Source: a virus
Virus record (IMG/VR): IMGVR_UViG_3300028388_002327
Span: 1-35,485 of that record
DNA length: 35,485 bases
Strand: one strand, 5' to 3'
In this document: one piece after another, positions 1 to 35,485 of the stretch
Numbering within the stretch: position 1 is the stretch's first letter
Layout: each line of letters begins with the position of its first letter
Program-made: the position numbers and the translations under genes
Notes under the pieces: generated by a model
What the model was told of the DNA's origin: nothing
What the model saw: the letters and a program-made list of their open reading frames with translations, nothing else
Databases searched by the model: none

Positions 1-1309
1 GTCTGGAAATCTCGACCAATTCGCAGACTCGGGGGGCGGTGGTGGTGCCAGCGCTGCCGGCTCTGGAACGGGCGGCGGTGACGGCGGCGAAAACGGCACC
101 GATGGGGTTGCGAACACTGGCGGCGGTGGCGGAGCCGGTCGCCGGAGCTTTAACGGCAACGCGGCCGGCTCCGGCGGCTCCGGCATCGTCATTATCCGCT
201 ACCCTACGGCTGGGGGCCCGTCGCCTGTCACGCTCGTGGTCGGCGATGCCCAGCACGGGCACACTGCTGACGATGTTGCGCTTATCCAGGCGTCGACCCT
301 CGCTGTAGGCGATGCCCAGCACGGGCACACTGCTGACGATGTTGCGCTTATCCAGGCGTCGACCCTCGCTGTAGGCGATGTCCAGCACGGACATACCGCC
401 GATAACCTTTCTCTCGTTCAGGCCGTGACGCTGACGGTCGAAGAGTCAGTTCACGGCCAAGTTGCAGATGAGGTTGCGCTGGTTCAGGCGTCCACGCTGG
501 CGGTCGGCGACTCGACGCACGCGCATACGGCTGACGTTGTTGACGTGACGCAAGCGATTGCGCTGGCTGTTGGTGCGGCAGAGCACGGACATACAGCGGA
601 CGGCGTGGCGCTTTCGCAATCAATCAGTCTCTCTCCCGGAGACTCCGAGCACGGACATACGGCGGACGAGCCGACGTTGACTGAGGCGGCGGTCGTGTCG
701 CCGGGCGATGCGCAGCACGGTCACGTCGCTGAAGGGGTGTCGCTTGTAGAGGCTGCCGCGCTCGCGGCGCAGGACGCTCAGCACGGCCACACTGCCGACA
801 ACACGGACCTAAGCACCGCTGATATTCTTGAGCCTGGTGACGCAGTACACGGGCACACGGCAGACGGACTCAATCTCGGGCAAGCGGCCGTGCTGACGGT
901 TGAGAGCGCGCTACACGCTCACACGGCAGACGAGCTTGCGCTGACTCAGGCGAGCGTGATCGTCGTAAACAGCGCGGTACACGACCACACTGCCGACAAC
1001 GTGACAATTTCGCAGTCGATCCTCCTCGCAGTCGGGTCGGCGCAGCACGCGCACACGGCGGACGGCGTAGAGCTTACGCAAGCGGCGCTGCTCGCTGTAC
1101 AGGACGCGCTGCACGAGCACTTCGCGGACGAGCCGGGCCTTTTGTTTGACGCCGTGCTAGTCGTCTCCGATGCTTTACATGCGCACCTCGCAGACAATAT
1201 CGTGTTACCGGGCACGGTCTTTGCGGCCGGCCGGCTTATGGTTGTCCGAGGAGTCGATCGCTTGATGATCGTGTCCCCGACGGACAGATTGCTAGTTGTC
1301 AGACACTGA
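1..1309 (+). CDS. Tail fibre / host-recognition protein, C-terminal part (glycine-rich, then HxH repeats)
   Basis: The frame is open from the first base of the window with no start codon, so this is the C-terminal part of a longer gene; it joins in frame to the gene starting at 35049. The first ~75 residues are glycine-rich and end in SGIVIIRYPT, a segment often seen at the end of glycine-rich phage fibre domains. Fifteen contiguous 22-residue repeats follow (239-1228), consensus roughly GDAxHxHTADxVxLxQA. The tail has three copies of a short RL(M/L)(V/I)V motif. Fourteen of fifteen repeats carry His-x-His. In T4 gp37, HxH motifs bind iron along a trimeric needle; a similar metal-braced fibre is inferred here, not shown. 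A later ATG-like start at 236 would remove the glycine domain and is unlikely. With the right-edge part the protein would be about 581 residues. Confidence 0.85.
   Translation, partial: SGNLDQFADSGGGGGASAAGSGTGGGDGGENGTDGVANTGGGGGAGRRSFNGNAAGSGGSGIVIIRYPTAGGPSPVTLVVGDAQHGHTADDVALIQASTLAVGDAQHGHTADDVALIQASTLAVGDVQHGHTADNLSLVQAVTLTVEESVHGQVADEVALVQASTLAVGDSTHAHTADVVDVTQAIALAVGAAEHGHTADGVALSQSISLSPGDSEHGHTADEPTLTEAAVVSPGDAQHGHVAEGVSLVEAAALAAQDAQHGHTADNTDLSTADILEPGDAVHGHTADGLNLGQAAVLTVESALHAHTADELALTQASVIVVNSAVHDHTADNVTISQSILLAVGSAQHAHTADGVELTQAALLAVQDALHEHFADEPGLLFDAVLVVSDALHAHLADNIVLPGTVFAAGRLMVVRGVDRLMIVSPTDRLLVVRH
239..1228 (+). repeat. Fifteen tandem 66-bp (22-codon) repeats in the fibre gene
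   Basis: The unit is exactly 66 bp throughout with no insertion or deletion, so the protein period is a strict 22 residues. Units 1 and 2 (239-304 and 305-370) differ at a single base (GTC versus GTA). The others have diverged strongly at DNA level while keeping the xHxHxAD core. Unit 4 has HGQ in place of HxH. The near identity of units 1 and 2 suggests recent duplication or gene conversion. Confidence 0.95.
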
Positions 1310-1550: not shown

Positions 1551-1922
1551 ATGGGACGCCTTGCAGACAACAGCGTGCTCGATGCGCTGCTCGACGAAGT
1601 CGCCACGGCGACCGAAATGTACGTTTGCACTGCCGAGCCGACCGACCGCGCTAACGCGGACTCGATCAGTCTCATTGCTGCGCACACCCTGACCGGCGCT
1701 GACTTTACGAACGCGGATGGCGACGTGAGCGGTCGGAAGGTGACTGTGGCGCAGCAGGCAACGCTAACCCTGGATGCGACAGGCACGGCGAACCATATCG
1801 CCCTGTGTGACGCCACGACCCTGCTCTATGTCACGACCTGCACCGCGCAGGCGTTGACTTCAGGCGGCACGGTGACGGTCCCGGCATGGGACATCGAGGT
1901 CGCTGACCCGGCTGCTCCGTGA
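1551..1922 (+). CDS. Conserved hypothetical structural-type protein
   Basis: The product is 123 residues (MGRLADNSVLDALLDEVA...). After a short N-terminal helix it is rich in Thr, Ala, Val and Asp with alternating hydrophobic residues, as expected of a beta-sandwich. There is no signal peptide or membrane segment. It starts 3 bases after the previous gene and its stop overlaps the next start (GTGA at 1919-1922), so it is cotranslated with its neighbours. Its place just upstream of terminase and downstream of the fibre suggests a fibre-attachment or decoration role; that is inference from position only. Confidence 0.72.
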   Translation: MGRLADNSVLDALLDEVATATEMYVCTAEPTDRANADSISLIAAHTLTGADFTNADGDVSGRKVTVAQQATLTLDATGTANHIALCDATTLLYVTTCTAQALTSGGTVTVPAWDIEVADPAAP

Positions 1923-2251
1923 CGATTGAGCACACAGGCACGGGTGTCCCGACTGACCCGATCCTGTTTGACCCGCAGAATACTGAGTGGGTCGAGCAGG
2001 CATGGGACGATGACGTCGACACCCACGGCGCTATTCAGACGAGCGCATGGGTCGTGCCGTCCGAGTGGACCGTCGAGACAAGCGAGGGTCCTGTCCCTGT
2101 TTCGGCCGGCGGCGTGACGTACACGAACGGCACACGGGCCCGTCTCACGACGACGGCGACGCGGGGCCTTCACATCATCACGAACCGCGTCACGTTCAAC
2201 GACGGAACTCAGCTGGACAGGAGCCGGCTGCTGCGCGTAGCGACAGCGTGA
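1919..2251 (+). CDS. Fibre-tail adaptor-like small protein
   Basis: The product is 110 residues with GTG start overlapping the previous stop. It shows 'EWVEQAW', 'ISSAW'-like (here IQTSAWVVP) and a closing 'ITNRVTFNDGTQLDRS' segment. This layout resembles short one-domain phage proteins often annotated as fibre-tail adaptors, which sit next to terminase in other siphophages. The last codons overlap the large terminase start (GTGA at 2248-2251). The family name is from memory of the pattern and should be treated as tentative. Confidence 0.72.
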   Translation: MTIEHTGTGVPTDPILFDPQNTEWVEQAWDDDVDTHGAIQTSAWVVPSEWTVETSEGPVPVSAGGVTYTNGTRARLTTTATRGLHIITNRVTFNDGTQLDRSRLLRVATA

Positions 2252-3489
2252 CGGCCCAGGTTGCGGACGAGGCGCAGGTACAGCTACCGCCCAAGCTGCT
2301 GCCGGTCTTCGCCCCGGCCCGCGGATCAGTCCGCTACCGGGGCGCTTACGGCGGGCGAGGTTCGGGCAAGTCTCAGAGCTTCGCTAAGATGGCCGCTGTG
2401 TTCGGCTACGTCGAGCCCCTGCGCATTCTCTGCACGCGCGAGTTCCAAGTCTCGATCAAAGAGTCAATGCACGCCGAGTTGCGTGCGGCCATCGAGTCTG
2501 AGCCTTGGCTGGCCGCGCACTACCAGGTCGGCGAGTCCTTCATCCGAGGCAACAACGGAACCGAGTTTTTGTTCCGTGGTCTACGGCACAACATCTCTTC
2601 TATCAAGTCCCTCGCGAAGATTGACATCTGTATCGTAGAGGAGGCCGAGGATGTGCCCGAGCATTCATGGGTCGACCTGATCCCGACTGTCCGATCCGAC
2701 CGCTCCGAAATCTGGGTGATCTGGAACCCGCGATCGGAGACGTCGCCGGCGCACGTTCGATTCCGCGAGAACTTCGACCGGGACGCCATGCGCATCGCGC
2801 AGATCAACTATCGCGACAACCCATGGTTCCCGAGGGTGCTCGACGAAGAGCGCGAGCGCGATCGGCGCAACATGGACCCTGGCATGTATGCGCACATATG
2901 GGAGGGCGACTTCCTCACCAATTCGGACGCCCAGGTGCTCGCCAACAAATGGGAAGTGCGCGAGTTTGACGACCCGACGTCATCGGACGACGGCCCGTAC
3001 TATGGCGCGGATTGGGGCTTCGCCACAGACCCGACCACACTGAATGCTGTATTTATCCGAGACGGAAAGCTGCATGTATGGCACGAGGCCCACGCGGTAG
3101 GCTGCGAGATCACCGACACGCCCGCGCTGTTCGATCAGGTGCCAGGGTCGAGAGATCACGCGATCAGGGCGGACAGTGCCCGCCCCGAGACGATCAGTCA
3201 CGTCGCGAAGTGCGGATTCAAGATCGTAGCCGCGCCGAAGTGGACAGGGACCGTCTTCGACGGTATCGCATGGCTGCGAAGCTTCGAATCCATCGTGATT
3301 CATCCTCGGTGCCGGAAGACGATTGAAGAGGCGCGCTTGTGGAGCTACAAGCGAGACAGGCTGTCTGGCGATGTTTTGCCGACCTTGCTCGACGGGCACG
3401 AGCATCACTGGGACGCGATCCGTTACGCTTGCGCCCCGATGATTCAGGCGAGCCGGAGGAAGGGCCGCCCGAGCATCCGGCAGCTGTGA
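2248..3489 (+). CDS. terL: Terminase large subunit
   Basis: This is the ATP-driven DNA packaging motor and headful or site nuclease. From the GTG at 2248 the protein is 413 residues, typical for the PBSX/Terminase_3 type. Walker A GGRGSGKS lies at residues 35-42. Walker B with catalytic acidic residues (IDICIVEEAE) lies at about 125-134, and the coupling motif VIWNP at about 157-161. The RNase H-like nuclease domain starts near GADWGFATDP (253-262), with further acidic positions in RADSA and HHWDAIRY near the C-terminus. An open frame extends upstream to 2047 but lies inside the preceding gene; the GTGA overlap matches the other junctions here. It acts with the portal at the procapsid vertex. 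A likely small subunit lies at 32445-32849. Confidence 0.95.
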   Translation: MTAQVADEAQVQLPPKLLPVFAPARGSVRYRGAYGGRGSGKSQSFAKMAAVFGYVEPLRILCTREFQVSIKESMHAELRAAIESEPWLAAHYQVGESFIRGNNGTEFLFRGLRHNISSIKSLAKIDICIVEEAEDVPEHSWVDLIPTVRSDRSEIWVIWNPRSETSPAHVRFRENFDRDAMRIAQINYRDNPWFPRVLDEERERDRRNMDPGMYAHIWEGDFLTNSDAQVLANKWEVREFDDPTSSDDGPYYGADWGFATDPTTLNAVFIRDGKLHVWHEAHAVGCEITDTPALFDQVPGSRDHAIRADSARPETISHVAKCGFKIVAAPKWTGTVFDGIAWLRSFESIVIHPRCRKTIEEARLWSYKRDRLSGDVLPTLLDGHEHHWDAIRYACAPMIQASRRKGRPSIRQL

Positions 3490-11209: not shown

Positions 11210-11505
11210 CGCCGATCCTGGCTCGAATGGCGAGCGGTCAACCGTTCATGGCCGAAGTCGAGTTCGACGAGATGTACCGGGTCGCGGTCGGCGTTTGGGG
11301 CATAGGCCCGAGTGAGTTCTGGACGATGACGCCGCGCGAGTTCTGGTGGATGTTCGATGTCCGGAAACCGCCGCCGAAGAAGGTCGGGCGGTCCTCGTTC
11401 ACCGAGGCAGAAGTAGAACGGCTCGCAGCAATGCAGCGCGAGCTGAAAGAGGAGCGCCGCAGTCGTGACGGAAGTTCAAGCGATACACGCCCGGTTCACG
11501 GGTGA
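11206..11505 (+). CDS. Tail assembly chaperone, downstream (T-like) product
   Basis: The 99-residue frame (MTPILARMASGQPFMAEVEFDE...) contains 'YRVAVGVWGIGPSEFWTMTPREFWWMF', which resembles the small chaperone family of gene-transfer-agent and phage tails that sits before the tape measure. The only start is TTG at 11206, overlapping the previous stop. It could be made either alone or as a -1 fusion through CCCAAAG. The C-terminal 14 codons overlap the tape measure gene. Confidence 0.82.
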   Translation: MTPILARMASGQPFMAEVEFDEMYRVAVGVWGIGPSEFWTMTPREFWWMFDVRKPPPKKVGRSSFTEAEVERLAAMQRELKEERRSRDGSSSDTRPVHG

Positions 11506-12823
11506 CACTTCCAGCCTCGACGCCGCAGTTCGGAACGCGACGACGCGCATGGATCGGTTCAACGACCGAATGCGCAAGGCCGCGAAGCGAGCTGCTGATC
11601 TGGGCGCAGCGGCTGGCGTAGCGACGGGGGCTATCACCGCAGCTGGGTCGGCGATCCTCCGCACTGCCGACGAGATCGGCAAGGCCGCCCAGGCCGCTGG
11701 TGTCACGACAGACCAGCTGCAGGAGCTGCGCTTTGCGTTCGGCCAGGTAGCTGGTACGTCTGCCCGTCAAGTCGACCAGGCGCTGCAGCGGTTCTCCGTC
11801 GCGATCGGTGAGGCTCGCCAAGGGACGGGCGAGTACCTCGACACGATCAAACAGCTGAACGTCAACCTCTCGCAGGACACGCCTGCGGCTCTGGAAGAGA
11901 CGCTTACCGCTCTGTCGCAGATCGAGGACGACGCAGATCGCGCCGCAGCGGCCTCTGCGCTGTTCGGCACACGCGCGGGTCCTCGGCTGGCTGGTGCGTT
12001 GAAGGGCGGGACCGAGGCGGTGCAGGCCCTGCGTGACGCGATCCAGCGCGATGGCGGCGTGATCAGTGCCGAGAACATCGATAACGCCGAGGCGTTCAAC
12101 GACCAGATGGACCGGCTCTCCAAGGTCGTGACGGCCGATCTCGCGAACACGATGCTAGAGAACGCCGACGCGATGGAATCGCTCGCAGAGGGCATGGCAG
12201 GCGTCGCGAGCGCGGCGGTCAGCGGGATCGCCGGACTTGCTCGGTTCGGTTCTAGCATCGGGGCGTTCCTGGGCGAGAGAGCGGGAAAGTCGTACCGCGA
12301 AGAGCTGCAGGAGCAACTCGGCACCGGTTCCCAGCCGCAGCGGATGCGATCCTTTTTCCGTGATCGAGTCGCGTCTGGGCCGGCTGCTCCGGCGGCAGAG
12401 TCCGGCAGCGGGGCCTCCGCCGAAGACTTCTTCTCGGTCCCCCAGGGCATGGGCGGACAGCTGGGCATCGCGGCCTCCGCCGAAGACTTCTTCGCGGTCC
12501 CCCAGGGCATGGGCGGACAGCTGGGCATCGCGGCCTCCGCCGAAGACTTCTTCGCGGTCCCCCAGGGCATGGGCGGACAGCTGGGCATCCGAGGAAGAAG
12601 CGCGCGCGACGACGGAGCAGATCGAACAGGAGCACATGGACAAGCTTGCTCAGATTCGCGAGCGCGGCATGGATCATATCGACCGCATCACGCAGCAGAG
12701 CTTTGCGCGGCAAGCTGGCTTCGTCGCCGGACAGTTGGAGCAGATGACGCGTTCGACCGCGAACGAGAATCGCGCGATGTTCGAGCTGAACAAAGCCGCG
12801 GCTTTAGCGTCTGCGGCGCTTGA
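11465..12823 (+). CDS. Tape measure protein, N-terminal part (frame breaks near 12590)
   Basis: From GTG 11465 (GAGGAG lies upstream). The first ~375 residues look like a tape measure protein: 'FTGDTSSLDAAVRNATTRMDRFNDRMRKAAKRAADLGAAAG', an Ala/Gly-rich hydrophobic stretch, then long helical coiled-coil sequence. Three 20-residue repeats (SAEDFFxVPQGMGGQLGI) follow. After the third repeat (12589) this frame turns into Arg/Ser-rich sequence without family character and stops at 12823, while convincing helix sequence continues in the +1 frame. Removing one C at 12589-12590 would give a single 577-residue protein; at ~0.15 nm per residue that predicts a tail near 87 nm. Confidence 0.85.
   Translation: MTEVQAIHARFTGDTSSLDAAVRNATTRMDRFNDRMRKAAKRAADLGAAAGVATGAITAAGSAILRTADEIGKAAQAAGVTTDQLQELRFAFGQVAGTSARQVDQALQRFSVAIGEARQGTGEYLDTIKQLNVNLSQDTPAALEETLTALSQIEDDADRAAAASALFGTRAGPRLAGALKGGTEAVQALRDAIQRDGGVISAENIDNAEAFNDQMDRLSKVVTADLANTMLENADAMESLAEGMAGVASAAVSGIAGLARFGSSIGAFLGERAGKSYREELQEQLGTGSQPQRMRSFFRDRVASGPAAPAAESGSGASAEDFFSVPQGMGGQLGIAASAEDFFAVPQGMGGQLGIAASAEDFFAVPQGMGGQLGIRGRSARDDGADRTGAHGQACSDSRARHGSYRPHHAAELCAASWLRRRTVGADDAFDRERESRDVRAEQSRGFSVCGA
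12412..12589 (+). repeat. Three tandem 60-bp repeats inside the tape measure gene
   Basis: Units end-to-end at 12421-12480, 12481-12540 and 12541-12589 (last one incomplete), preceded by the repeat's leading GGCCTCCGC. Units 1 and 2 differ at one base (TCT versus TCG), units 2 and 3 are identical until the break. The frame of the N-terminal gene is kept through all three, and the frame change falls exactly at the right end of the array, where CATCG is replaced by CATCCG. Confidence 0.95.
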
Positions 12824-13199
12824 CGCGCGCGAAGCTGTCACTGGTTCCTACAAGGTCGGCGCGCGGATCGGCGGGCCGACGCTTGGCGCGGCCTTCGCTG
12901 CCGCCGCAGCCGCGGCCCAAGCGTCTAACATCGCCGCGATCGCCAGCACTTCCTTCGGTAGTGGCGTGGCCCCCGGAGTGGGCGCTACAGCTGCGCAGCC
13001 AGTGGTCGACGTAGGCTCGGGAGGCAATGCGAGCGAGCCGGGTGGCGGCGCACCGGCCGGCCCTGCCGCTAATCAGACGCTCACGGTCTCCGGCATTACC
13101 GCCGACGCGCTTTTCGATGGCGATTCGATTCGTGGCCTTGTGCAGCAGATCGTCGAGTTCCAGCGCGACGGCGGTAACGTGATCATCGGAGATCGTTGA
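12636..13199 (+). CDS. Tape measure protein, C-terminal part
   Basis: In the third frame, coding character resumes at 12591 (SEEEARATTEQIEQ...). The first in-frame ATG is at 12636 with CAGGAG a few bases upstream, so separate initiation is possible and would give 187 residues. Sequence is helical (EHMDKLAQIRERGMDHIDR), then an Ala-rich hydrophobic part (AAFAAAAAAAQASNIAAIAS) of the kind seen in tape measures, then a Gly/Pro-rich linker. The gene ends at 13199 overlapping the next ATG. Most simply this is the rest of the 11465 gene. Confidence 0.82.
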   Translation: MDKLAQIRERGMDHIDRITQQSFARQAGFVAGQLEQMTRSTANENRAMFELNKAAALASAALDAREAVTGSYKVGARIGGPTLGAAFAAAAAAAQASNIAAIASTSFGSGVAPGVGATAAQPVVDVGSGGNASEPGGGAPAGPAANQTLTVSGITADALFDGDSIRGLVQQIVEFQRDGGNVIIGDR

Positions 13200-13993
13200 T
13201 GGGACAACTTGTCGACCTTCGTTCGTCTCCGGACGCCGCGCCTGTCATCGCACAAGCGAATGCCGCCTTTACTGGCGCGTTCACTGCGACGGCGGCAGTG
13301 ACTGACTTCGGCCCGAATGCCGCACGGAGTTACGCGACGTTCGAAGGCTGGCGGCCGAATGCCGCTGACGCATCGCTAACGGTGAGTTTCACCTCGGCAC
13401 AATCGGTCGACTATATCGGCGTCGTCTGCATCGGAGCGGTCAGCACGACGACCGTGCGCGCATCGACCTCGACAAACGGCGTGACGTTCGTCGATCGCGG
13501 CGCAGCCCAGGACGCTAGGCAGGGCGCGATCCTGTGGCTTCTGGACTCGCTGTCCTCGATCACCGAGGTTCGGATGCGCGTGCAGAACGGAAACGTTTCC
13601 GGCTTCCGGCTCGCGGTTTTGATGGCCGGGCAGCGCACGACCATGCAGCGGAACATCTACGTCGGCCATACGCCGATCACATACGGCCGCACGACCGAGG
13701 TCACTTCGAACCGAAGCGAGAGCGGCCAGTTTCTCGGCCGCATTGTGCGCCGACGCTCGCTCGGCACGAGTATCGCAATGTCAAACATCACGCCGACTTT
13801 CTACCGAAACACGCTGGACCCAGTGTTGCGCGCGATGGAAGAGCAGCCCGCGTTCTGGAGCTGGCGGCCTGAAGCGGCCTTCAATAACGAAGTCGCCTAT
13901 GCTTGGGCATCGGGTGACGCGCAGGTTGTGAACCAGCGGCCAAACGGAATGATGCAAGTGTCGCTCGACCTCAGTTCCGGGCCCTTCGCATGA
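13199..13993 (+). CDS. Distal tail / tail-tip protein
   Basis: The product is 264 residues from ATG 13199, which overlaps the tape measure stop (TGATG). The first half has a jelly-roll-like pattern ('SYATFEGWRPNAADASLTVSFTSAQSVDYIGVVCIGAVSTTTVRAST'). The second half has 'YVGHTPITYGRTTEVTSNRSESGQFLGRIVRRR' and 'FWSWRPE'. A protein of this size directly after the tape measure is normally a distal-tail or baseplate ring component. The family is not recognised with certainty. ATGA overlap to the hub gene. Confidence 0.78.
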   Translation: MGQLVDLRSSPDAAPVIAQANAAFTGAFTATAAVTDFGPNAARSYATFEGWRPNAADASLTVSFTSAQSVDYIGVVCIGAVSTTTVRASTSTNGVTFVDRGAAQDARQGAILWLLDSLSSITEVRMRVQNGNVSGFRLAVLMAGQRTTMQRNIYVGHTPITYGRTTEVTSNRSESGQFLGRIVRRRSLGTSIAMSNITPTFYRNTLDPVLRAMEEQPAFWSWRPEAAFNNEVAYAWASGDAQVVNQRPNGMMQVSLDLSSGPFA

Positions 13994-16722
13994 GCGAAGC
14001 AATCACCCTTGTCGAGATTGACATCGACTTTTGTTCGCTGACGTATGGCGTTGGCCCCTGCACGGCTGCGGCATCGGTTGCGATCCTCGACGAAGACGGA
14101 TTCCCCTTGCTCGACGAGAGCGGCGACGAGATCGAGGCCGAGAGCACGTTGCAAGGGATACAGGACGAGAGCGGTCAGACGCTGCTCGACGAGTCGGGCG
14201 AAGACATCCTCGACGAGACCTCGGTGATCGTCGGCACGCGCTGTTACAACACATTTGCGACGTGCCAGGACCGGCCAAACTTCACAAACGAGCCGAAGAC
14301 GCTACGCTACTCCGTCGCGAGCGCGAACACCGACAAAGGCGACATTGACTCTATCCCGTCGCTGGTGAGCGTGCGCCACAAGCCCGGGCGCATTCGCATC
14401 GGCCAGGATTTGGGCGAGCGCGCGAGCGTAACTTGCACGTTCGAGGACCATCGCCATAGCGATATCGGCGTAGACCCATACGTCACCGATCGCACCTATG
14501 ATCCGCTCACGCAGGGGACGTATTGGGGGCGCTTCGTCGCCCGCAATCCGTTCATCATCGAGCGTCCGCTCCGCGTCTATCACGGCCGTGCTGGCGATAC
14601 GTTCCCGGCTGACTTCGAGCGGCGCGACTACTTGATCGAGTCGATGTCCGGCCCAGGTCTACAGGGGTCCGTGCAGATCGTCGCGAAAGACCCTCTCCGC
14701 CTTGCAGACGGAGACCAGGCGCAGGCCCCTGCAGCCTCTACGGGCCTTCTCGACGCGGGTATCAGCGACAGCGCCACGAGCCTGACTCTAGCGCCTGCCG
14801 GCATTGGGGCCGAGGAATATAGCGGCGTCACCTATGTCGCGATCAATCGTGAGATATGCGAGGTCACGAACCGCACGGGCGACGTGCTGACGATCGTCCG
14901 GGGCCAGCTCGGCACCGAGGCCCAGGCGCACGACGCAGACGACACCGTGCAAGTTGTCCTCGAATACACGCCGCAGCAGCCGAGCGACATTCTGGCTGAT
15001 CTTCTCCTGAACTATGCGAACGTCGATGCGTCCTGGGTCGACACCACTGAATGGAACGAAAGCGACACGCTGTTTGTCGGCCGGAACTTCACCGGATACG
15101 TCGCAGAGCCGACACCGGTCAAAGTGCTGATCTCCGAGATTCTGGAGCAGGCCGGCGCGAATATGTGGTGGTCCGAGACCGAGCAGCGCATCCGATACGA
15201 ACCGCTCCGCGTCGTGGTGGGCCCGCCGACCGTTGGCGCGGACCAGATGATCAGCGACAGTTTCAAGTCGCGCTCGCTTCCGGAAAAGCGGCTGTCTCAG
15301 GTCTGGACGTACTATGGCCAGATCAACCCGCTGGAGCCGGACGAGCCGAGGAACTATCGCGCGGTCGCGGTCGAGGTTGACGGGGATGCGGAGAGCGCCA
15401 ACGAATACGGCCGTCCCTCGATCCGAAAACTGTTCTCCCGTTGGGTCGCGGCCACTGGCCGAAGCGGCGCGCAGGAACTGAATGCGCGACTGCTCGCGCG
15501 CCGTCGCGATCCTCCGCGGCAGTTCGAGTTCTCACTCGCGCGCTATGCGTCCGACCCGCCAGAAATGGGCGACACGATTGCAGTGCAAGCGCAGCCGCTG
15601 CAGGACGCTCAGGGCCTGCCTAGCAGCGTCACTACTCAGGTGATCTCAGTCGGCGCGCGATTCGATGCGTTCGGCGTTGTGGCCGAAGAGTTCCGCTTCA
15701 CGACGACAGACGGCGGCGCAGCAGGCGCGGGGCTCAACCCCAGCCGCCCCATCGACATTGTGAACGACACGCCCAACGTCAATCTGTGGATCGAATATCT
15801 GAGCCTGTATCCGAACCCGACCGATCTGAACCAGGAGATCGGCAGCGTCGACGCGGGCACTGACACGATCACGATCAACGGTCACGGATACCAGAACGAC
15901 GCGCGGCTGATTTTCGTCGACGCCGCCGACCTTCCTGCGCCGTTCGTAGCTGGCACGACCTACTACGTCATCAATCAGACGGCCAACACATTCCAGCTCT
16001 CTGCGACCGAGGGCGGCGCAGCGATCAACATCACCGACGCGGGGACAGGCACGAACTTCGTGCGGCTAGAAGTCGATGTGCCGGTGACGATCGACCCGAA
16101 CATACAGGTCTATTCGACCAGCTCGGCCAATCCTGCGCTCACCGTCGGAAACTTCGTCGATGGGGTAAACATCACGCTTCGCGTGCGCGAGGGCGCATAC
16201 ATCATCGGCAAGGGCGGCGAGGGCGGCGATGCGACCTTCTTCAACGGCCTGAGCGGAGAAGACGGTGGCACCGCGCTGTTCACCCGTTATGACATCGACG
16301 TAGAGAACGACGGCACAATAGCCGGCGGCGGCGGTGGCGGCGGCGCAGGTGGCTCCGGCTCCGAGGGTGCATTCGCCATCATAGGGTGGGCAGGTGCCGG
16401 CGGCGGCGGCGCGGGCCGAAACGCTGGCGGCGGCGGCGCGTCCGGCGGTTCTCCCGCGCAGCAGGCGGCAAACGGCACGCTAACGACCGGCGGCCCTGGC
16501 GGTGATGGCGAAGATGCGCCTGCTGACCCGCGCGGCGGCGACGGCGGCGACGGCGGCGATCTCGGCCAGGCAGGCGGGAACGGGAGCCTCGGCTCTGCCT
16601 CTGGAATTGATAGCGATATCGGCGTTGGAGGTTCTGGCGGCGCGGCGGGCACTGCGATCGACGGCGACTCGCAAGTTACACTCACGGGTTCCGGTACTGT
16701 GACCGGGCCACAGGTCAACTGA
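13990..16722 (+). CDS. Central tail hub / tip attachment protein with polyglycine C-terminus
   Basis: The product is 910 residues. The N-terminus holds a Cys-bearing tail-tip pattern (CSLTYGVGPC ... RCYNTFATCQDRPNF) interrupted by an acidic insertion with repeated LLDESGD-type units. Residues ~95-590 are a hub-like region ('GDIDSIPSLVSVRHKPGRI', 'EVTNRTGDVLTIVRGQLGTEAQAH', 'MWWSETEQRIRYEP'). A beta domain near 620-690 has 'INGHGYQNDARL' and 'TYYVINQTANTFQLSATEGG'. The last ~180 residues are very glycine-rich, as in polyglycine-helix adhesins such as S16 gp38. A single protein thus joins hub and receptor-binding-type modules; the receptor role is inferred. Confidence 0.88.
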   Translation: MSEAITLVEIDIDFCSLTYGVGPCTAAASVAILDEDGFPLLDESGDEIEAESTLQGIQDESGQTLLDESGEDILDETSVIVGTRCYNTFATCQDRPNFTNEPKTLRYSVASANTDKGDIDSIPSLVSVRHKPGRIRIGQDLGERASVTCTFEDHRHSDIGVDPYVTDRTYDPLTQGTYWGRFVARNPFIIERPLRVYHGRAGDTFPADFERRDYLIESMSGPGLQGSVQIVAKDPLRLADGDQAQAPAASTGLLDAGISDSATSLTLAPAGIGAEEYSGVTYVAINREICEVTNRTGDVLTIVRGQLGTEAQAHDADDTVQVVLEYTPQQPSDILADLLLNYANVDASWVDTTEWNESDTLFVGRNFTGYVAEPTPVKVLISEILEQAGANMWWSETEQRIRYEPLRVVVGPPTVGADQMISDSFKSRSLPEKRLSQVWTYYGQINPLEPDEPRNYRAVAVEVDGDAESANEYGRPSIRKLFSRWVAATGRSGAQELNARLLARRRDPPRQFEFSLARYASDPPEMGDTIAVQAQPLQDAQGLPSSVTTQVISVGARFDAFGVVAEEFRFTTTDGGAAGAGLNPSRPIDIVNDTPNVNLWIEYLSLYPNPTDLNQEIGSVDAGTDTITINGHGYQNDARLIFVDAADLPAPFVAGTTYYVINQTANTFQLSATEGGAAINITDAGTGTNFVRLEVDVPVTIDPNIQVYSTSSANPALTVGNFVDGVNITLRVREGAYIIGKGGEGGDATFFNGLSGEDGGTALFTRYDIDVENDGTIAGGGGGGGAGGSGSEGAFAIIGWAGAGGGGAGRNAGGGGASGGSPAQQAANGTLTTGGPGGDGEDAPADPRGGDGGDGGDLGQAGGNGSLGSASGIDSDIGVGGSGGAAGTAIDGDSQVTLTGSGTVTGPQVN

Positions 16723-20487: not shown

Positions 20488-20990
20488 TCAATCTGCCGCG
20501 CCCTCCGCGTCGCTGCCGACGTTCCACCCGAGCAATCTAGCCTCGGACGCTAAGAACTGCACAATCCGAGTCATGCGTTCGCCGTAGGCGTCGGTCTGCT
20601 CGGTCCAGTTGGCACGGTTTGCCGGAGACCAGTGCTCTAGCGCCTGAGCAAGCGTCATCGAATTACAGTGCTCGTCCGTGATCCAAAAGCCTCCGCGGTC
20701 GATGTAGGCTAAGACGCTGTTATTACTTAGCGTCGCCGTCACAACAGAGGCGTTATGCTGTACGCGGGCACGCGCGAGGCTGGCACCCGAGAGGTCGGCA
20801 CTTGAGAGGTTAGCATTCGAGAGGTCGGCATCCGAGAGGTAAGCAACCGAGAGGTCGGCACCCGAGAGGTTGGCACCCGAGAGGTCGGCAGCCGAGAAGT
20901 CGGCATCCGAGAGGTCGGCACCAGAGAGGTCGGCACCAGAGAGGGGTGCAAATCCAGGATTTCGCTTAGCGCGTTTGGGTTCATTTCCAT
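20488..20990 (-). pseudogene. Pentapeptide-repeat protein gene with a frameshift
   Basis: From ATG 20990 the frame gives [15 protein letters not shown], a typical opening of phage pentapeptide-repeat proteins. A -1 shift at CACCCC (complement of 20943-20946) then gives about twelve A(D/N)LSx repeats, followed by a conserved-looking C-terminal part (LAYIDRGGFWITDEHC...) ending at 20488. Read without a shift, the repeats become PTSRx units and the frame stops at 20739, with a GTGA overlap to a GTG start at 20742 (84 residues). The repeat pattern, with D/N at position 2 and free choice at position 5, fits the pentapeptide frame. So the gene is either frameshifted, mis-sequenced at the C-run, or recoded. 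Confidence 0.75.
20763..20945 (-). repeat. Pentapeptide (15-bp) repeat tract
   Basis: About twelve 15-bp units, consensus GCC GAC CTC TCG GGT, coding A(D/N)LSx. Third-base changes (GCC/GCT, TCG/TCA) are silent in this frame, and the variable fifth residue is G, D, A, V, N or S. The unit 8 has Tyr in place of Asp/Asn. Confidence 0.9.
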
Positions 20991-21190
20991 TAGGCCATTT
21001 CCTCTAGTTCCTGAAGGTCCCTGTCCAGCTTTGCGAGCATCCGCTGGCACGCTTCGGCATCTTTCGATACCTGCTCCGACTCACTGACTTCTGCCGCTGC
21101 GCGCAAGTTGACTCGTGCGCGGGCGATGTGTGCGCGGGCGTCCAGCATGTAGCCCACTGCTTTTGGACTGTTCATAGCGAGCACGCTCAT
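20990..21190 (-). CDS. Small helical protein of unknown function
   Basis: The product is 66 residues (MSVLAMNSPKAVGYMLDARAHIARARVNL...). It is highly charged and helical, ending LDRDLQELEEMA, with likely coiled coil. ATG overlaps the upstream regulator's stop (ATGA) and its own stop overlaps the pentapeptide gene's ATG (TAATG), so the three genes form one operon. No family recognised. Confidence 0.7.
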   Translation of the reverse strand: MSVLAMNSPKAVGYMLDARAHIARARVNLRAAAEVSESEQVSKDAEACQRMLAKLDRDLQELEEMA

Positions 21191-34471: not shown

Positions 34472-35052
34472 TCCGAGCGGTTCCCGAGCTGGGGCCTAGA
34501 GGCTTCGAGCAAGTTTGCAAGGCTGCTCCGGGCGCGCCTGCTGAGTTGCGGCTGGATGTGCGCAATGCCCGGAATATTCCCGCGCGCACGGACTGCCTGA
34601 CGACTGTAGTCGGCGAGGTAGTCAGCGCTCTTCTCGACGTTCGCCCTCGGCATGTCGGCATCCGTGTCGGGTTCAACCCCGCTTCGTCTGGTATCGAGTT
34701 TTCCGGGCTGTCGTTTGGTTTTCGCTGCCGCGATGCGCAGGGCGTGATCGTGGCGGAGGAGAGCTGGCCGAAAGGAGATGTTGTCTATGTCCGCAGCGCC
34801 TTTGATCAGGACTGGATTCACGGCAGCGCGGTTAGGGGCCTGGTAACTGACGGCCGATACAGCATTGAGGTCTGGTCTGTTAATGCGGGCGAGACCTTCA
34901 GCACGTCCGTTGAGTTCACGGCGCCTCGCCCTCCTCGGCCGTTTCAGTCGTGGACGTGGGGGCCGGGCTGGACGCCGCCTGTCCCGTATCCCGAAGACGG
35001 GAACGATTACAGGTGGGATGAACCGACGCTTAGCTGGGTGCTGGTCCCGTGA
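34456..35052 (+). CDS. Fibre-associated protein
   Basis: The product is 198 residues from GTG 34456. The middle has beta-sandwich character ('HVGIRVGFNPASSGIEFSGLSFGFRCRDAQGVIV'). The C-terminus 'PVPYPEDGNDYRWDEPTLSWVLVP' resembles the short 'YxWDExxxxW' tails of fibre assembly proteins. It ends with a GTGA overlap to the glycine-rich fibre gene. Probably a fibre adaptor or chaperone. Confidence 0.75.
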   Translation: MDASLIRAVPELGPRGFEQVCKAAPGAPAELRLDVRNARNIPARTDCLTTVVGEVVSALLDVRPRHVGIRVGFNPASSGIEFSGLSFGFRCRDAQGVIVAEESWPKGDVVYVRSAFDQDWIHGSAVRGLVTDGRYSIEVWSVNAGETFSTSVEFTAPRPPRPFQSWTWGPGWTPPVPYPEDGNDYRWDEPTLSWVLVP

Positions 35053-35485
35053 CGGCAGCTAGCGGCGGAACAGAAACAACGTCCGGCGGGAACACGATCC
35101 ACACGTTTACGTCTCCGGGCACGCTTACGTTCTCTGAGGGCGGGAGTGATGTTGAAGCCCTAATAGTGGCCGGTGGCGGCGGCGGCGGCATTTCTTCTTT
35201 TGAACCCGGTGGTGGCGGCGGTGCGGGGGGCGTCATCGAGCGTGATTCAGGCTCCCCGATCACGGTTACTGCATCGGCCTACACCATTACCGTTGGCGCG
35301 GGAGGCGCTGGCGGCGCCCCCGCTGTCGCCGGCATCGATTCTGTGTTTTCTGGCGCCGGCGTATCTCTTACAGCAATTGGTGGCGGGCAAGGAGGGGCCG
35401 ATAGGGGCAGTGATCCTCCGGGCGTCGGCGGTAGTGGCGGCGGCGACGAGGCGCGGAATACGTCGGGCGGGGCGGCAGGTACGGC
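35049..35485 (+). CDS. Tail fibre, N-terminal part (continues at the left edge)
   Basis: From GTG 35049, 145 full codons plus two bases reach the window edge without a stop. The sequence starts with a short N-terminal part (HTFTSPGTLTFSEGGSDVEALIVAGGGGGG) and becomes a glycine-rich domain. Adding the first base of the window completes the codon GCG, and the same frame continues into the 1-1309 gene, whose first part is also glycine-rich. This is therefore one gene split by the window cut. Confidence 0.9.
   Translation, partial: MTAASGGTETTSGGNTIHTFTSPGTLTFSEGGSDVEALIVAGGGGGGISSFEPGGGGGAGGVIERDSGSPITVTASAYTITVGAGGAGGAPAVAGIDSVFSGAGVSLTAIGGGQGGADRGSDPPGVGGSGGGDEARNTSGGAAGT

Follow-up and report, generated by a model that had tools for sequence, protein, structure and literature searches.

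Is the run of histidine-bearing repeats encoded at the start of this viral record a metal-braced fibre needle of the kind known from T4 gp37, as a first-pass annotation of its letters proposed, or a stalk of another build? The DNA analysed, here called the window, is the whole IMG/VR record IMGVR_UViG_3300028388_002327 (35,485 nucleotides), which is circularly permuted so that its ends cut within the fibre gene: the gene starts at 35049, and ORF 35049-35483 shares its reading frame with ORF 2-1309 across the join, for a product of 581 aa. The join is supported by a single match to the Gly_rich_2 profile (PF21722) that spans both ORFs, covering profile positions 2-225 of 226 and residues 22-213 of the joined protein (E 2.5e-19; 70.6 bits against a cut-off of 24.3 bits). 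The fibre protein is ordered as a glycine-rich head, a 15-repeat stalk and a 29-residue C-terminal tail, and the gene is followed by a cassette of small genes:

35049..35485, + strand: 5' part of the fibre gene, which begins with GTG and here comprises codons 1-145 plus two bases of codon 146
within 35049..35485, + strand: first half of the glycine-rich head domain (PF21722, E 1.1e-13 on the 5' part)
1..229, + strand: remaining half of the Gly_rich_2 head, then a short linker (profile match on the joined protein)
230..1219, + strand: candidate stalk, 15 contiguous 22-residue repeats with the consensus xLAVGDAxHGHTADxVxLxQAx (translation; TRF on the first units)
428..493, + strand: repeat 4, the sole unit without HxH (HGQVAD)
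1220..1306, + strand: C-terminal tail FAAGRLMVVRGVDRLMIVSPTDRLLVVRH, in which an R-x-h-x-h unit occurs three times at a spacing of about 10 residues
1320..1547, + strand: small gene (ORF 1296-1547) in the slot of an 88-aa gene of Microcystis phage Mae-JY22
1551..1922, + strand: companion gene s123, with the predicted fold of phage neck and tail-fibre-complex chains (AF2 model, structure matches)
1919..2251, + strand: 110-aa gene in the slot of a GP4-type fibre-tail adaptor (Gp77), placed by slot and alignment only
2248..3489, + strand: terminase large subunit, start of the late gene block (phrog_3717, E 1e-62)

Translation of 230-1219 bore out the fifteen 22-residue repeats and their constant period, with no insertion between units; the range first given for them, 239-1228, has the same 990 bases in a register shifted by three codons, and the start of the gene had been missed. 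HxH is indeed found in 14 of the 15 repeats, the exception being HGQ in repeat 4, whereas the claim that Ala-Asp always follows is true of 14 repeats: position 13 is Ala in all fifteen, and position 14 is Asp everywhere except in repeat 8, where it is Glu. The 14 HxH motifs share one 22-residue phase of the window ORF, while 20,000 shuffles of that ORF gave a mean of 2.0 HxH in total and never more than 3 in one phase, which rules out a chance origin of the periodicity. Recent DNA duplication as the cause of the pattern is ruled out by the divergence of the units (mean pairwise identity 55% for DNA and 48% for protein, with synonymous sites near saturation for most pairs), except for units 1 and 2, the only near copies (62 of 66 bases). 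Given a mean DNA difference of 45% and this near-saturation, the pattern has therefore been kept by protein-level selection and not by recent copying.

Homologous repeats, which the first-pass annotation had suggested seeking in other phages, proved to be abundant. Peptide patterns taken from the single window sequence found no close relatives, but a degenerate DNA pattern for HxHTADN succeeded, with 65 stretches in viral contigs, and a tandem DNA pattern gave more than 119 such stretches. Collected with a position-specific matrix (about 1,570 repeats in the first pass), the HxH-repeat family comprises 1,638 repeats in 141 non-redundant arrays, mostly from uncultured phages, in which it is a large and hitherto unannotated family. 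Microcystis phage Mae-JY22 alone carries the repeat among 50,697 named phage records; a pattern scan of bacterial genome contigs gave 118 stretches, of which nine are true arrays (in assemblies that include Sphingomonadales, Anaerolineae, Zixibacteria and Planctomycetota) and the others chance matches, and none was found in the plasmids searched. Neither the single sequence nor a profile matched any solved structure by sequence. PHROGs gave scattered weak matches on the repeats, the commonest being an 'HNH endonuclease' family (8 of 56 members), which we took as His-repeat noise, and Pfam matches to NosD, LPD18 and UPF0688 were taken as compositional. Neighbouring repeats lie 22 residues apart in 1398 of 1572 pairs, and arrays range from 4 to 32 repeats with the unit kept; variable length with a constant unit is as expected of a spacer. 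In relatives, the repeats are preceded by heads such as Laminin_G_3 (8 of 77), Pentaxin, CBM96, TIG and Gly_rich_2, which suggests that the stalk carries exchangeable binding heads. Since structural proteins of uncultured viruses are mostly unannotated, a common repeat with a short motif and a conserved small-gene cassette can help to pick out fibre genes, and the heads they encode, across many genomes.

The gene neighbourhood supports the earlier assignment to a fibre-type structural protein. A homologue of s123 adjoins the repeat gene on the same strand in 96 of 138 repeat loci, as against 0 of 109 control loci (in an earlier search with single sequences); 36 of the 138 have neither companion, many of these being cut at contig or locus ends. 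The AF2 model of s123 (pLDDT 95.3) matches the Sf14 neck (9c39_K, Z 10.5), the Bas63 connector (9mt4, Z 10.6), the tail fibres of phage 7-7-1 (9rkv_A, Z 8.0) and chain a of the GP4 fibre I-adaptor complex (8jou_a, Z 6.5), a likeness given at the level of PDB entry and chain. The Sf14 neck bears two sets of whiskers (PMC11821841) and the 7-7-1 entry comprises fibres together with homodimeric garland proteins (PMC12796354); the likeness to Sf14, Bas63 and 7-7-1 belongs to this neighbour and not to the repeat protein itself. While the match to 8jou_a alone is not decisive, independent evidence comes from the next gene of the cassette, since its relatives belong to the adaptor family of podophage GP4 (PDB 8JOU, PF23148): PF23148 is found in 16 of 17 aligned members, a profile of these relatives matches 8jou_D (E 2e-14), and the 27-bit cut-off is passed in 9 of 12 records searched, all of them relatives. 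The window's own 110-aa copy scores 12.3 bits against PF23148, below that cut-off for the GP4 adaptor gp77 family, and gave no match in a second search; it appears to have diverged too far for the profile and is a putative adaptor by slot and alignment. Mae-JY22 has a repeat gene, an 88-aa gene, an s123-like gene (42% identity) and an adaptor gene in the same order as the window. Its repeat gene XAI95683 (L002:3-1421) is probably annotated with too late a start: its frame stays open directly upstream and there encodes a part that resembles Laminin_G_3 (below cut-off). Because a companion with such a fold adjoins it and, in relatives, a GP4-type adaptor follows, the repeat gene very probably encodes the stalk of a fibre or whisker on the virion.

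Among relatives whose small-gene module lies downstream, 26 of 43 have at least two R-x-h-x-h units in the C-terminal tail; where the module lies upstream, 4 of 52 do (p 3e-8, uncorrected for relatedness among the relatives). In phage DSL-LC06 (L271:3652-4998), the gene in the fibre-gene slot, just before adaptor and terminase, encodes Ser/Thr-rich repeats unrelated to the HxH unit and ends in an Arg-repeat tail of the kind seen in the window's fibre protein. With other repeats joined to a like tail in a like slot, the stalk appears to be an exchangeable module, and the tail, we infer, is what stays constant.

The substitution pattern of the family bears on where the histidines point. Position 9 is His in 98% of the 1,638 repeats; position 11 has 82% His and 12% Gln, the rest being mostly Leu, Val, Ser or Thr. 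These shares depend on retrieval, most loci having come via an HxH pattern and twenty stretches via an HxQ pattern. Gln is thus the commonest non-His exception across the family as it is in repeat 4 of the window, whereas Asp, Glu, Lys, Arg and Tyr never occur at position 11. As His to Asp, Arg or Tyr are also one-base changes, their absence argues for a buried site, and the paired histidines probably face the core rather than solvent. The conserved positions of the repeat alternate; the residue between the two histidines is Ala, Gly, Ser or Thr in 83% (55% at other variable positions), and the residue after the second is Ser, Thr or Ala in 75%.

From the repeats, the gene context and the substitution pattern that we observed, we infer a fibre with core-facing histidines and short strands, and the explanation that as a whole we consider likely is that the 15-repeat region forms a stiff stalk in a fibre or whisker of the virion. 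In this scheme, the N-terminal glycine-rich head, presumably a binding domain, would be kept at a distance from the particle by the stalk, and the fibre would be attached at neck or tail by its C-terminal Arg-repeat tail together with the neighbouring small proteins. Each 22-residue unit would fold into short beta strands with positions 2, 4, 9, 11, 13, 16 and 18 facing the core, where the His pairs would make up a buried polar column. Several chains, probably three, would contribute to the stalk; fibres of this sort are usually trimers, and for this one we somewhat favour a trimer. As in T4 gp37, a metal ion could sit in most of the HxH layers, and HxQ layers would be held by hydrogen bonds in its place.

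A stricter version builds on the metal-braced needle of the first-pass annotation: a trimer whose HxH layers would each bind iron (or zinc) through six histidines in octahedral arrangement, making 14 metals per fibre. Motif and spacing speak for it. T4 gp37 and pyocin fibres are trimers (PMC6957217; PMC6116203); gp37 has seven coordinated iron atoms (PMC6957217), while the R1 and R2 pyocin fibres have one HxH iron site and the spikes of P2, phi92 and R2-pyocin one each (PMC6116203; PMC6957217). The HxH motifs of the gp37 tip (HSHS, HTHS, HSHY, HSHT, HSHS, HTHT, HGHT) compare well with the window-type H-small-H-[S/T/A], the small middle residue being present in 14 of 15 window repeats; small middle residue and gp37-like motifs fit metal coordination. 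The fibre proteins R22Y gp12 and V19 gp4 of Alteromonas phages, also with HxH at 22-residue spacing, have been proposed to bind iron, for R22Y from prediction and docking (PMC11705849). The geometry differs: gp37 has its motifs at irregular positions (883, 915, 929, 966, 980, 989, 998) and the pyocin site is single, whereas HxH in the window recurs strictly every 22 residues; and metal and trimer are proven in gp37 and the R1/R2 pyocin fibres, while the window stalk is known from its sequence. Against an iron site in every layer, Gln has taken the place of the second His in 12% of repeats, among them whole arrays, so that the two histidines are not kept family-wide: one array (L278) has HxQ in 9 of 10 units, and another (L279) lacks HxH in 10 of 10, five of these being QxQ and the remainder HxQ. 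The acid at position 14 is moreover independent of the second His (86% without it versus 84% with it, p 0.47), so the two do not form a co-varying unit. We regard the needle with metal in all layers as possible, on balance doubtful; that the His pairs of the stalk bind metal at all comes closer to an even call, falling just short of it. Because arrays wholly or nearly HxQ exist, metal does not seem obligatory for the stalk; what stands of the gp37-type column first proposed is the motif likeness and the probable core-facing histidines. Such natural HxQ arrays are a built-in comparator without HxH for the metal question, and should the His column bind iron, the notion of iron-bearing phage fibres would gain many sites per virion.

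An architecture without metal, a single-chain beta-solenoid with one repeat per turn and an inward stacked His/Gln ladder, is somewhat unlikely in our judgement. It draws on AF2, whose model of the single chain (56 rows; pLDDT 77.9) is a right-handed beta-helix in which each repeat contributes three strands, and the His/Gln exchange would suit a hydrogen-bonded ladder. Also in its favour, repeats without the second His cluster, adjoining each other more often than expected (62 versus 48.3 +- 4.5, p 0.003). This clustering is, however, no stronger than that of other columns such as 5 and 16; the five stalk models ranged from 59 to 78 in pLDDT, and Foldseek gave no close match to the model (best E 1.9e-3, TM 0.40). 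AF2 is known to yield confident false beta-solenoids for repeat sequences (PMC11795689), on account of which we rejected the helix at face value and used the strand pattern alone, weakly.

A further argument against one repeat per turn is a beat of two to three repeats in the connector (positions 19-22), which reads TQx[HN] in about half of repeats in arrays of at least 8. Repeats without Gln at position 20 avoid adjacency (55 pairs observed against 94 expected, z -5.8), whereas spacings of two and three repeats are enriched among them (z 4.0 and 5.2). The signal survives clustering of the arrays at 60% and at 50% similarity; with the 12 arrays left at 45%, it fades. All 128 length changes came after repeats without Gln20, as against 0 of the 728 repeats with Gln20. 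There is no such beat in the HxH part of the repeat, and it is not clearly seen in the window array. Neither structural model explains it. It is conceivable, and in our view unlikely, that these proteins form a distinct, hitherto undescribed stalk family, widespread among uncultured phages, in which metal-loaded HxH and hydrogen-bonded HxQ layers are interchangeable, with up to about 30 metal sites per stalk whose number would be tuned by repeat gain and His to Gln change, the beat then reflecting a new solenoid/trimer geometry.

We also considered whether the repeats are simply diverged units of a known family, the phage tail repeat PTR (PF12789), which has the 22-residue period, HxH at the window's phase followed by an acid, and a place in fibre proteins; PTR-type matches occur in 173 of the 50,697 phage records. 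Profile positions 4-57 align in register to residues 6-59, and BLASTP of the window against R22Y gave an in-register alignment (E 2e-4 for that single comparison). The profile score, in contrast, is 14.5 bits (E 0.038), under the curated cut-off of 27, and none of 12 related records passes that cut-off. The PTR spacer reads like TIADVTGLQAALDGKA, the window-type spacer ADNVxLTQxxxLxVxDA, and the hydrophobics at positions 2/4 and 16/18 of the window-type repeat lie elsewhere in PTR-type repeats. Membership in PF12789 is thus quite improbable, and a distant common origin with PTR is possible. A solvent-facing, His-rich chelator or adhesive surface would account for the His-rich composition and is highly improbable, given a near-invariant position 9 and a position 11 free of Asp, Glu, Lys and Arg in all 1,638 repeats.

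Three other parts of the window are repetitive or glycine-rich. A tape-measure-like gene at 11465-13199 contains 3.1 copies of a 60-bp repeat (12404-12589), and the C-terminal part of its product seems to be encoded in a different frame (ORF 12237-13199), pointing to a frameshift around 12590 that is either natural or due to misassembly. On the minus strand, a 103-aa ORF at 20739-21050 is built from about twelve 15-bp repeats coding for PTSR(V/L/M) pentapeptides. Finally, the tail protein encoded at 13990-16722 ends in a second glycine-rich region, for which the match is to the Gp38 family of adhesins (PF05268, E 2.5e-10).
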